Assembly (NCBI GenBank): GCA_013214205.1
Contig: JABSPQ010000363.1
Location: forward strand, 1 to 34,897
Direction: 5' to 3'
Origin: Flavobacteriales bacterium
GTDB taxonomy: Bacteria > Bacteroidota > Bacteroidia > DT-38
DNA length: 34,897 nt
Shown here piece after piece: positions 31,263-34,861 of this stretch. The position numbers and the translations under genes were made by a program. A model generated the notes under the pieces. The model saw only the letters and a list, made by a program, of their open reading frames with translations, did no database searches and had not been told where the DNA came from. Position 1 is the stretch's first letter; every line of letters begins with the position of its first letter.

Positions 31263-31613
31263 CTACCCTTTTCTCACTTTGTTTTTGAACCCAATTCTTT
31301 TTCGAGGCTCTGCGATTTCTTTACTCTCCACTAATTCGTCGAGATAACTAAACACCAATTCTATGTTTTTATCTTGATTGTTAAGTTTCTTCTTAATCTG
31401 TTCTACATCACTTTTGATTCCTAAATTCTCGGTAAAAAAAGCACGCATTTTAATAAATACACGAACAATTTGAATGTTGGCCTGAATCGCTCTATCGTTA
31501 TTTAAAACGCTTGCCAGCATTACCGCTCCGTGCTCTGTAAATACATATGGCAGAGCAGAAGAGTACTTAATATTCTCGAGGTGGTCGCAATTTGCGACCA
31601 CCTCAAACTGTTT
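31263..31613 (-). pseudogene. C-terminal remnant of an ORF6N-domain DNA-binding protein
   Basis: The open frame runs from just after a TAA (31614-31616) and encodes KQFEVVANCDHLENIKYSS, then LPYVFTEHGAVMLASVLNN, the hallmark centre of ORF6N (phage/plasmid KilA-like) proteins, and a C-terminal coiled-coil-like helix (IKKKLNNQDKNIELVF). Full members are about 190-300 aa with an N-terminal half (VMLDFDLAELY-type) that is missing here; upstream sequence is non-coding. It could initiate at GTG 31601 but lacks the first part of the fold. The gene is therefore a truncated, probably dead remnant of a mobile-element gene. A palindrome of the cluster at 31578-31925 forms its first codons (VVANCDHL). 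Confidence 0.75.
31578..31604. repeat. Palindrome unit 1 (GAGGTGGTCGCAA core)
   Basis: 13-base arms (31578-31590 and 31592-31604) separated by one T; perfect match. Read on the minus strand it is in frame with the ORF6N remnant and encodes EVVANCDHL. The central base is T on the plus strand, so this unit is in the opposite orientation to units 2 and 3. Confidence 0.9.
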
Positions 31614-31718: not shown

Positions 31719-31747
31719 GAAGGTGGTCGCAAATTGCGACCACCTTC
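31719..31747. repeat. Palindrome unit 2
   Basis: 14-base perfect arms GAAGGTGGTCGCAA (31719-31732) and TTGCGACCACCTTC (31734-31747) with one central A. It is the longest perfect unit. No gene overlaps it. Confidence 0.9.
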
Positions 31748-31862: not shown

Positions 31863-31889
31863 AAGGTGGTCGCAAATTGCGACCACCTT
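31863..31889. repeat. Palindrome unit 3
   Basis: 13-base perfect arms AAGGTGGTCGCAA (31863-31875) and TTGCGACCACCTT (31877-31889) with one central A, same orientation as unit 2. Confidence 0.9.
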
Positions 31890-31896
31890 TAATGCT

Positions 31897-31925
31897 TTCT
31901 AAGGTCGCATTTTGCGGCCTTAGAA
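31897..31925. repeat. Palindrome unit 4, degenerate; possible terminator of the anti-sigma operon
   Basis: TTCTAAGGTCGCA (31897-31909) and TGCGGCCTTAGAA (31913-31925) pair with one mismatch around TTT. It lacks the GGTGG outer part of units 1-3 and has instead TTCTAA. It begins 12 bases beyond the stop of the anti-sigma gene and could end that transcript, although no clear T-run follows. Confidence 0.65.
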
Positions 31926-31937
31926 GTAATTATTCGT

Positions 31938-32909
31938 TTAAAAAATCATAATTAGCTTTTGGCGAGAGCCTATTGACTTACCGTTTTTTGTGGCTGGGTT
32001 CCACTTTGGCATTTCGTCTAATATTTTAATTGCAAATTCATTCAAATCTTTATTAGTGCTTTTCTTCACTTTAGAACGACCTATTTTTCCATTTGTATCC
32101 AAATCAAAAATGACCTCAACCTCTCCTTTAAGCTTCGTCATTTTTTTTGCCACGGCAGTCAAGTAGTTTTTTAACTCTTTATCACCTCCGGGGAAATATG
32201 CTACAGCATTTCCATTGTCCTCTGCGCCATACGCATAACCTCCCTTCGTTCTTCTCTTTTTTCTTACAGGAGCATTAATTGAACTAGAACCAATGATAGA
32301 AACTTTCTCTACAACCGAATCCATAACAAATGGCTCAATAGTATTTACAATAGCCAACTCATTAGGCTCATCTATATTGATTTCATTAATAGTCGAATCG
32401 TAATACTCTATGTTGTCATCGGCATCTATTGTTGCAACTTGCAGAATAAGCCGCTCCTCTATTCTATGAATTACTTTAATAGGAGTTTCTTCATTCGTTG
32501 TAACAGATTCAACAGGAATAGTCTCACCAAATATTATTTCGACAGGCTGTTCTTGTTTAATCTCAGCCATTGCAGCTCCATCTGTGCTAGAATTTAAATA
32601 AACGTACCCACCCCCTACTGTAATTAACAGAACAACTGCAGCAGCCATGTTTATCCAATTCTGTTCATGCTTTCTTTCCGTTGATAAATCTACTCGCTTA
32701 GCAACCTTATCATTAATATGATTAATCTTTTCGCTCCCATGTTCAGCTATCATTTCTAATGTATCCGAACACATTTCGCAATCAACTAAATGTTGCTCTA
32801 CCAAATGAGCCTTGTCGTTATCCAATTGATCTTTGTGATAAGCCGTCAATTCTTCCATCGACAAGCAACCTGATGTATCTACAATATTCTCCATATTATT
32901 TCTGTCCAT
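31938..32909 (-). CDS. Zinc-finger anti-sigma factor fused to a TonB C-terminal domain
   Basis: 323 residues. The N-terminal anti-sigma zinc finger has H40-x3-C44-x2-C47 in an HLVDCEMC context (plus an upstream Cys15), as in RsrA/ZAS-type anti-sigma factors. One membrane segment follows (about 86-105, AAAVVLLITVGGGYVYL). The periplasmic part has a linker of about 100 residues and ends (about 238-323) in a TonB C-terminal-like domain (VEVIFDLDTNGKIGRSKVKKS, then MPKWNPATKNGKS). The N-terminus would hold a sigma factor; the C-terminus could contact an outer-membrane partner, a role normally played by FecR or TonB. Two ATGs are possible (32909, overlapping the sigma gene by 14 bases, or 32894). 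Fusion of these two domains is seen in Bacteroidota but its signal is not known to me. Confidence 0.85.
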   Translation of the reverse strand: MDRNNMENIVDTSGCLSMEELTAYHKDQLDNDKAHLVEQHLVDCEMCSDTLEMIAEHGSEKINHINDKVAKRVDLSTERKHEQNWINMAAAVVLLITVGGGYVYLNSSTDGAAMAEIKQEQPVEIIFGETIPVESVTTNEETPIKVIHRIEERLILQVATIDADDNIEYYDSTINEINIDEPNELAIVNTIEPFVMDSVVEKVSIIGSSSINAPVRKKRRTKGGYAYGAEDNGNAVAYFPGGDKELKNYLTAVAKKMTKLKGEVEVIFDLDTNGKIGRSKVKKSTNKDLNEFAIKILDEMPKWNPATKNGKSIGSRQKLIMIF

Positions 32910-33477
32910 CTTTTGATAATAGAATGCCTAATTTCCTCTTTCCATTTTGAATATGACTTTTAATCTCCTTGAACGAAAAGCCCGTTTCTACCTCCATTTC
33001 TTTGTACCGCATTTTCTTCAAATAAAACAATTCTATGCAAATCCTTTGCTCATCTTTAAGCTCACCAATACAATTTTCCAACTCATCAAGCCGAGCCTCG
33101 TTGATGGTTTTATTAGATAGGTCTATTTCATCCTCATTTTCCATAAAATAAGTGAACTGATCTATCATTTTACCTTCTCGGTTGTCTTTTCTTATCTGTT
33201 TTAAACAATGATTTTTTACCACACTAAACAACCAACCCTTAAAATTGGTGACTTCTGTATGTTTTAAATCATTAGTTAAAATTTCAAAAACCTCCATTGC
33301 CGCATCCTCTGCCTTGGCCTCATTTTTAGAATATTTAAAAGCAATAGAAATAACAAGGTGTTGGTGTCGTTTGAAAAGAAACCCTACAATTTCAAGGTCG
33401 TCTTTCTCCTTATATAGTTGAACTAAATCAACATCTGAAAGTTGTTCAAAATTTCTCTTTCTATTGAAAAACAGCAC
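32896..33477 (-). CDS. ECF RNA polymerase sigma factor
   Basis: 193 residues from GTG 33477. Region 2 includes AEDAAMEVFEILTNDL and FKGWLFSVVKNHCLKQIRKD; region 4 includes LKDEQRICIELFYLKKMRYKEMEVETGFSFKEIKSHIQNGKRKLG, an intact helix-turn-helix. Its stop overlaps the anti-sigma start, giving translational coupling expected of a sigma/anti-sigma pair. The target genes are unknown; the divergent gene pair at 33575 and 34110 is the nearest candidate. It differs clearly from the sigma factor at 14758-15342, so the two are separate systems. Confidence 0.9.
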   Translation of the reverse strand: MLFFNRKRNFEQLSDVDLVQLYKEKDDLEIVGFLFKRHQHLVISIAFKYSKNEAKAEDAAMEVFEILTNDLKHTEVTNFKGWLFSVVKNHCLKQIRKDNREGKMIDQFTYFMENEDEIDLSNKTINEARLDELENCIGELKDEQRICIELFYLKKMRYKEMEVETGFSFKEIKSHIQNGKRKLGILLSKDGQK

Positions 33478-33501
33478 CTGATTCTAAAATTAAATGAAAA
33501 T

Positions 33502-33522
33502 GTTTTATGGAATTTATAAAAC
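33502..33522. promoter_or_regulatory. Inverted repeat in the divergent region, possible operator
   Basis: GTTTTAT (33502-33508) and ATAAAAC (33516-33522) flank a 7-base centre, in the 97-base gap between the sigma gene and the divergent cysteine-rich gene. AT-rich and weak; it could be chance. Confidence 0.25.
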
Positions 33523-33574
33523 CTCGTCCCTAAAGCATAAGGAACAGATATAAACTTTTTAAAATATTTTGAAC

Positions 33575-34069
33575 ATGAACCAACCTCAAATAAATAATTC
33601 TTGTCCAATGGCCAATTTTCGAATAGATGATAATAACGGTGTTAGGCATTGTGGATCTTGCAATAGAACGATAATTGATTTTTCGGATATGTCGCCTCAA
33701 GAGATTGCCAACCATTTTACCAACAACAAAACCGCCTGCGGTATTTTTAATAGCGATCAAGTGATTGTACCCAATCATGGTTTTGCATACCAAGCGAAGT
33801 ACAGTTTGCTTGTTTTAATCTCAGTTATCGGATTCAACGTTTCTCCTTTGAAAGCACAAAACACTCAGCACCCCACCGACACAATTAACGAAAGTGGTCA
33901 TCCGTATGTAAAAGAATCCAATAATGAGAGATACTCTGAACCACCTAATCTTGAATCATCGCTAAGCGATATAGAAATAACCAACAAGAAAAAGAAAGGT
34001 TTTTTAAAACGAATCTTCACTAGGAAACCGAAGAACGTTTATCGCATTACTGGTGGCGTTTCATTCTGA
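33575..34069 (+). CDS. Zinc-ribbon-like one-TM protein, paralogue 1
   Basis: 164 residues from ATG 33575. The N-terminal domain has C10-x15-C26-x2-C29-x25-C55 in contexts HCGSCNRTIIDFSDMS and ACGIFNSDQV, the pattern of an uncharacterised zinc-ribbon-like domain found at the N-terminus of many Bacteroidota membrane proteins (C-x2-C...DF...CGxF). A single membrane segment follows (about 75-92, SLLVLISVIGFNVSP), ending KAQ, and then a periplasmic, acidic/Ser-rich linker and a basic tail (KKKKGFLKRIFTRK). In larger relatives the segment after the membrane holds a carboxypeptidase-regulatory-like or TonB domain; here only the tail remains. Not recognised by function. Divergent from a sigma/anti-sigma pair and followed by its paralogue 40 bases later. 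Confidence 0.75.
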   Translation: MNQPQINNSCPMANFRIDDNNGVRHCGSCNRTIIDFSDMSPQEIANHFTNNKTACGIFNSDQVIVPNHGFAYQAKYSLLVLISVIGFNVSPLKAQNTQHPTDTINESGHPYVKESNNERYSEPPNLESSLSDIEITNKKKKGFLKRIFTRKPKNVYRITGGVSF

Positions 34070-34109
34070 TTTTATCCAAATAATTTCCATTTTAGTTCGT
34101 TAAACAAAC

Positions 34110-34589
34110 ATGCTTAGTACAGATACATTCATTATAGAAAATAACTGCCCTGTAGTTTTGGGAAATAGCAAAACTGGAAAAAATCCATTTTGCAAATCGT
34201 GTGCTTGTACGGTAATCGACTGTACGAGTAAAAGCAAAACCGAAATAAAGGATTTGTATTCCCAGAGCAACGGAAATTTCTGTGGCATTTTTAAAGACGA
34301 TCAAGTTCTGAGTCCTAAAAGAAACTGGACATACAAGCTTATGTTTTCGGGATTGATAGCCATATCATTCGTTGGCTTTAACGTTACTCCTATCAAAGCT
34401 CAGTCTTTAGTTGATACACTTATTGTAGGCGAATCACCTCAAATCAATACAGCCGACGAAGAATATGTTTCGGAGGAAAAAGAGGTGAAGCGCAAAAGTA
34501 GATTTCGAATAAGCCACATGTGGCCTTTTAGACGATTAATAAGACAAGGTAAAATGAAAATGAGCTACAAAGAAGTTCGTTACCTCTAA
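34110..34589 (+). CDS. Zinc-ribbon-like one-TM protein, paralogue 2
   Basis: 159 residues. Same plan as its neighbour: C13-x14-C28-x2-C31 (with extra Cys33 and Cys38) -x26-C58 in FCKSCACTVIDC and FCGIFKDDQVLSP, a membrane segment (about 76-93, MFSGLIAISFVGFNVTP) ending in KAQ, an acidic linker and a basic tail (KRKSRFRISHMWPFRRLIRQ). The shared 'GFNV(S/T)P(L/I)KAQ' end of the membrane segment shows it is a duplicate of gene 33575-34069, diverged mainly in the cysteine-rich loop and tail. No further recognised domain. Confidence 0.75.
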   Translation: MLSTDTFIIENNCPVVLGNSKTGKNPFCKSCACTVIDCTSKSKTEIKDLYSQSNGNFCGIFKDDQVLSPKRNWTYKLMFSGLIAISFVGFNVTPIKAQSLVDTLIVGESPQINTADEEYVSEEKEVKRKSRFRISHMWPFRRLIRQGKMKMSYKEVRYL

Positions 34590-34744: not shown

Positions 34745-34750
34745 AAAAAA

Positions 34751-34861
<111 letters not shown>

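Follow-up and report, generated by a model that had tools for sequence, protein, structure and literature searches.

An ECF sigma factor and its TonB_C-ended anti-sigma factor opposite two four-cysteine domain genes: a probable regulatory switch and its candidate exported targets in a Flavobacteriales bacterium

The locus and its regulatory pair

The window, by which we mean the whole stretch of DNA analysed (34,897 nucleotides), makes up an entire contig in a draft genome of 5.1 Mb, and the four genes that an earlier note had described in it were recovered by open reading frame calls and Pfam. On the reverse strand lie the gene of an ECF sigma factor (32896-33477, a 193-aa reading frame with regions 2 and 4 and a GTG start) and the anti-sigma factor gene (31938-32909, 323 aa), which overlap by 14 bp. 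On the forward strand are cys1 (33575-34069, 164 aa, with an alternative TTG start at 33569), which encodes a four-cysteine domain (Cys4), a predicted internal signal peptide and a short basic tail, and its paralogue cys2 (34110-34589, 159 aa); the two are 40 bp apart and probably form a single operon. As a 5S rRNA gene (34749-34861) stands at the contig end, the sequence beyond cys2 probably continues into a ribosomal RNA operon. Separately, three near-identical palindromes (AGGTGGTCGCAAATTGCGACCACCT) occur about 142 bp apart at 31579-31603, 31720-31746 and 31863-31889, with a partial fourth copy near 31901-31922, and the first of them overlaps the start of an ORF6N-domain remnant (31263-31601).

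The sigma factor matches Pfam Sigma70_r2 (6.7e-12) and Sigma70_r4_2 (2.5e-08), both above the curated cut-offs, and the sigma70-ECF model TIGR02937 (68.8 bits, cut-off 42.9), and with regions 2 and 4 present it belongs to the ECF sigma factors; no NCBIfam equivalog cut-off was passed among the matches listed. It is a diverged member of its family, with a long branch in the sigma tree and departures from 16 well conserved family columns; one of these is Met93 to Lys, which we place in region 2.4.

The anti-sigma factor carries H40-x3-C44-x2-C47 (about 32769-32792, reverse strand), a single membrane segment at about residues 86-106 and a TonB_C domain at residues 256-314 (about 31968-32144, reverse strand; Pfam 2.3e-08, 34.8 bits, cut-off 24.6), so the earlier description of a sigma factor overlapping an H-x3-C-x2-C, single-segment, TonB_C-ended anti-sigma protein agrees with the reading frames and, for the sigma regions and TonB_C, with Pfam. 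Its TIGR01352 score lies under the cut-off of that model, and Pfam zf-HC2 reaches only 12.2 bits (cut-off 22.2); H-x3-C-x2-C beside an ECF sigma gene is the signature of ZAS-type anti-sigma factors, and the motif is retained by most relatives. Matches to the N-terminal part occur in 149/295 genomes of the same class, about half, and nearly every locus examined has a sigma gene immediately 5' of the anti-sigma one. The C-termini differ among relatives, being TonB_C, CarbopepD_reg_2 with TonB_C (two scanned members of a large family that we call f35) or other domains. The anti-sigma factor would inhibit the sigma factor, and its TonB_C domain may sense an outer-membrane partner directly. Downstream of the nearest relatives of the pair (L097-L099) lies a shared gene of 103 aa that has a CPSC/CPIC motif. 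In the genome of the window there is another sigma/anti-sigma pair, on contig C248; the gene next to it, divergently placed, encodes a YfbK-type protein with CarbopepD_reg_2, vWF_A, VWA and YfbK_C domains.

Neighbourhood and a two-box promoter motif

In family f35 the sigma and anti-sigma genes lie beside Cys4 genes in 21 of the 40 clusters with longer flanks, always divergently and in the orientation of the window, in a sample that was chosen by Cys genes and not by sigma genes. The linked clusters often have two Cys4 genes in tandem, and between the pair and the Cys genes there is anything from almost no gap to one of about 3 kb; most loci with a gap have in it a YfbK-type or plug-domain gene that runs in the same direction as the Cys genes. 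Among 64 Cys loci with flanks the pair adjoins only in the window and in L115, which is itself an f35 member and whose arrangement the f35 relatives repeat; apart from f35, the window is essentially the only linked case. A query with the sigma factor returned eight loci, none with Cys genes. Across the class, presence of Cys4 and of the anti-sigma gene is uncorrelated, the latter occurring in 54/98 genomes with Cys4 and 95/197 of the others (p 0.27). The conservation of the neighbourhood, which the earlier note had put forward as a check, thus holds in f35 but not in most other families, where the Cys genes are scattered; this scatter, which the note named as refuting its view, concerns gene position and does not extend to the promoter. 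In the sigma tree the linked f35 sigma factors form one clade, while the window sigma factor sits among unlinked ones, and since it groups outside that clade, the association may either have arisen at least twice or be old and often lost.

A two-box consensus, TRTGBAAW-N13-GCATC, precedes Cys4 genes. It was exposed by comparing the sequences upstream of sigma genes, and its placement on the sigma strand was given up in favour of the Cys strand because it is also found before unlinked Cys genes and second tandem ones. Scores of at least 12 of 13 were obtained for 41/83 f35 Cys genes (0.06 expected) and for 18/76 Cys genes outside f35 (0.08 expected), the other 58 being without the motif. The spacer is 13 in 47 cases and 12 in four, all other lengths between 0 and 35 being absent, and the whole has the look of an ECF promoter. 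From the absence of a class-wide correlation and from the 58/76 genes that lack the motif, it follows that the Cys4 family also serves outside the sigma regulon.

Counts over 295 genomes, with the backwards motif as control, show that motif and anti-sigma gene go together: the 149 anti-sigma-positive genomes hold 747 matches against 93 for the control (8-fold), and the 146 negative ones 249 against 85 (2.9-fold). The anti-sigma gene is present in 47 of the 49 genomes with at least seven matches and in 7/45 with none; in the class sample, of 18 genomes with a Cys gene that bears the motif 17 have it, as against 7 of 32 in which none of the sampled Cys genes bears the motif. Every link between promoter and sigma factor is statistical in kind.

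A copy of the motif also lies inside 47/54 sigma genes (e.g., L096, L199), at a homologous place and directed towards the anti-sigma gene. Its T and G occupy third codon positions, following 9-10 different residues, and are fixed in 46 of the 47, against backgrounds of 0.25 and 0.27, and because these wobble bases are fixed, the site is under constraint at the DNA level and not only through the protein. A promoter in such a position has a precedent in Corynebacterium glutamicum, where PrshA lies inside sigH (PMC3489674).

Because of the shared promoter, its tracking of the anti-sigma gene and the intragenic copy, the Cys4 genes are best read as members of the regulon. The idea that the pair and the ribbon proteins make up one pathway is thereby upheld in part, with the pair as regulator and the Cys4 proteins as its probable targets, given the f35 arrangement and the promoter. 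That widespread Cys4 genes have merely come to stand beside a widespread sigma/anti-sigma pair would suit the near-absence of linkage outside f35 and the missing class-wide co-occurrence, but it does not account for the f35 recurrence with constant orientation or for the shared promoter, and we hold it to be very improbable.

Other motif-bearing genes in nine genomes encode TonB (four genomes), ExbD (two), YfbK-type or vWA proteins, MG2 proteins (two) and one DUF4139/DUF4140 protein. In the genome of the window the C248 pair has a canonical promoter as well, 22 bp in front of its divergent YfbK-type gene. We also observed a full canonical promoter at C77:26890 (L245), 27 bp before a gene for a SIMPL-domain lipoprotein, which is presumably a target of the C248 paralogue. 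A search of the literature found no description of a TRTGBAAW-N13-GCATC promoter.

In the window itself the -35-type boxes are in place: TATGGAAA at 33138-33145 (reverse strand), inside the sigma gene where the relatives have their intragenic promoter, and TATGGAAT at 33506-33513 (forward strand), upstream of cys1. TATGGAAW occurs only four times on the two strands of the 34.9 kb taken together, two of them at the two expected places. GCATC is absent from both of these sites; upstream of cys1, TCCCT replaces it at the family spacing, so the window Cys genes are preceded by an exact -35 box and not by the full motif. Since GCATC is missing at both sites and the sigma factor is diverged, the simplest reading is that the window sigma factor may have changed its -10 specificity. 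The same facts could be taken for a module in decay, with a diverged sigma paralogue, lost GCATC boxes and short Cys4 remnants that are weakly expressed or transcribed from a housekeeping promoter, and the long sigma branch, the 16 departures, the missing -10 boxes and the reduced mature parts would all fit. However, all the reading frames are intact, both paralogues have kept their presumed cysteine ligands and predicted signal peptides, and both -35 boxes are exact; we therefore find decay doubtful, and we prefer a working switch with an altered -10 box.

The Cys4 family and the predicted export of its products

The Cys4 domain of cys1 extends from C10 to F58 (33602-33748, forward strand) with the spacing C10-x15-C26-x2-C29-x25-C55-G-I-F, and that of cys2 from C13 to F61 (34146-34292, forward strand) with C13-x14-C28-x2-C31-x26-C58-G-I-F and additional Cys33 and Cys38. 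The two proteins are 39% identical (E 6e-15) and are the only Cys4 copies found in their genome; sequence, identity and charges bear out the earlier account of two paralogues with this cysteine spacing, a segment ending KAQ and a basic tail. Cys4 domains occur in 98 of the 295 genomes of the class, with up to nine copies per genome, and four cysteines and one aspartate are invariant among 59 aligned members, so the domain is not a chance pattern. Scans of these 59 members found no shared Pfam or NCBIfam family; Cys4 is a separate, widespread family without a model in either collection.

AlphaFold2 gave cys1 a pLDDT of about 78-92 over residues 21-70, and confidence in the model is limited to about residues 21-90. 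A PDB fold search with the window Cys4 model yielded no match at E <= 0.001. HMG proteins, which appeared as PDB sequence matches, were dismissed as weak and confined to a short stretch, and a match to BSAP-5i was dismissed as covering only the signal-peptide region. In many Cys4 proteins we noticed a basic stretch followed at the C-terminus by G-x-x-S-F or similar, for example GCPSF, GTPSF or GGVSF (L064, L110, L118, L137 and window 34052-34066).

Behind the domain lies a hydrophobic segment (33800-33856 in cys1 and 34338-34400 in cys2, forward strand), the core of a putative internal signal peptide with predicted cuts at Ala94/Gln95 (LKA|QN) and Ala97/Gln98 (IKA|QS), respectively. In a non-redundant set of 158 Cys4 proteins the segment ends in a lipobox in 37 and in AxA|Q in 73 (shuffles 12.7 and 19.1), cys1 and cys2 both being of the AxA|Q type, whereas 54 anti-sigma membrane segments taken as control gave three lipoboxes and no AxA|Q. 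Ends typical of signal peptidase I (Q-rule) or II are therefore found as strict matches in 110/158 proteins against 3/54 in the control; about a third of the Cys4 proteins match neither strict pattern, and most of these are AxA-like by eye. In Bacteroidetes, Gln directly follows the signal peptidase I cut (PMC5837995), and LKA|QN and IKA|QS share this feature, although the putative Cys4 signal peptide, unlike those of known Q-rule substrates, is internal and follows a cytoplasmic domain of roughly 60 residues. A combination of lipobox and C-terminal T9SS-like sorting domain, read by eye and unusual as a pairing, is apparent in L068, L107, L113, L115 and L116.

The segment ending KAQ thus looks most like a signal peptide that is internal and is removed by cleavage, at A|Q or a lipobox, and the mature products would be exported. 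Calling cys1 and cys2 membrane proteins, as was first done, is probably wrong, given these features of the segment and the agreement of KAQ with the Q-rule. Among 69 full-length Cys4 relatives, 36 have CarbopepD_reg_2 and 24 a T9SS sorting domain behind the segment; the sorting domains imply Sec export, and the window proteins are indeed reduced, as the earlier note held from comparison with larger relatives. After cleavage the mature lengths would be 70 residues (cys1) and 62 residues (cys2), with net charges of -4/+8 and -5/+9 in the two halves after KAQ, the first half acidic and the end basic. The idea that the basic tails are antimicrobial peptides was dropped, since many relatives have basic tails behind a CarboxypepD_reg domain.

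It could be argued instead that the Cys4 proteins stay in the inner membrane as stable single-pass proteins and, from its cytoplasmic face, regulate the sigma/anti-sigma pair. The conserved divergent neighbourhood in f35 speaks for this, and the cytoplasmic Cys4 domain would then lie near the anti-sigma zinc domain. Against it stand the signal-peptidase-type ends of the segment, the T9SS sorting domains downstream in relatives and the promoter evidence, which makes the Cys4 genes targets (although targets can also feed back), and we consider it unlikely. A tentative addition to the export reading, and not an alternative to it, is that Cys4 may be a cytoplasmic sensor of metal or redox state that gates export of the protein behind it, which would put expression and export alike under control; conservation of the domain before very different exported domains and the invariant cysteines and aspartate would agree with that, the lack of a solved fold match does not help it, and we give it little more than an outside chance.

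A model of the switch and its relation to known systems

The explanation that we favour, and consider reasonably probable, is an ECF sigma switch that drives the divergent Cys4 genes and its own anti-sigma gene, with Cys4 products cut at A|Q and exported. The sigma factor would be held at the inner membrane by the overlapping zinc-motif anti-sigma factor, whose TonB_C end would be periplasmic, and would be released on a signal that is probably the state of the envelope or of the TonB system. Once freed, it would transcribe cys1 and cys2 from the promoter with the -35 box upstream of cys1, and the anti-sigma gene from the intragenic site, which would amount to negative feedback; the -10 box appears to have changed in this diverged paralogue with respect to the relatives. 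The Cys4 products would have a cytoplasmic four-cysteine domain and enter Sec at the internal signal peptide, and the cut would set free the exported proteins with their basic tails, while the piece comprising Cys4 and the membrane segment would stay in or at the inner membrane. The gene set, the divergence in f35, the promoter motif with its link to the anti-sigma gene, the intragenic constraint and the signal-peptidase-type ends were established by computation; inhibition of the sigma factor, the signal, use of the promoters in the window, cleavage and any role of the Cys4 domain are inferred.

The pair resembles ECF systems with ZAS-type class I anti-sigma factors in the two-region sigma factor, the overlapping anti-sigma gene, H-x3-C-x2-C and the one membrane segment, and differs from them in the variable periplasmic end. 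Like EcfO-Reo of Bacteroidales, whose regulon includes secreted proteins, it is a Bacteroidota pair with an anti-sigma factor that reaches the envelope, but Reo is reported to span to the cell surface and the targets there are NigD and not Cys4 proteins (PMC13114119). In sigH-rshA a sigma-dependent promoter inside the sigma gene likewise drives the anti-sigma gene, in another phylum and from another promoter, whereas here the arrangement is deduced from sequence and the window has lost the -10 box (PMC3489674). The SM6 ECF promoters of Flavobacterium psychrophilum are also a Bacteroidota class that includes a sigma/anti-sigma pair, with a CGT -10 box and T9SS machinery genes in place of GCATC and the genes for TonB, ExbD, YfbK-type vWA, MG2 and Cys4 proteins (PMC9723704).

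For a module present in about half of the sampled class, the analysis yields a concrete promoter sequence, a putative feedback site within the sigma gene and a candidate regulon made up of TonB, ExbD, YfbK-type vWA proteins, MG2 proteins and Cys4 proteins. As the anti-sigma factor ends in TonB_C and the candidate regulon includes TonB and ExbD, TonB-dependent transport may be what the system monitors. The widespread, unmodelled Cys domain in front of predicted internal signal peptides is an oddity of protein export. To speculate further, the membrane-held Cys4 remnant might signal back to the inducing sigma/anti-sigma pair that export has succeeded, or what the metal or redox state is; we regard this as distinctly improbable, yet if true, it would mean an export-monitoring feedback loop in many Bacteroidota.
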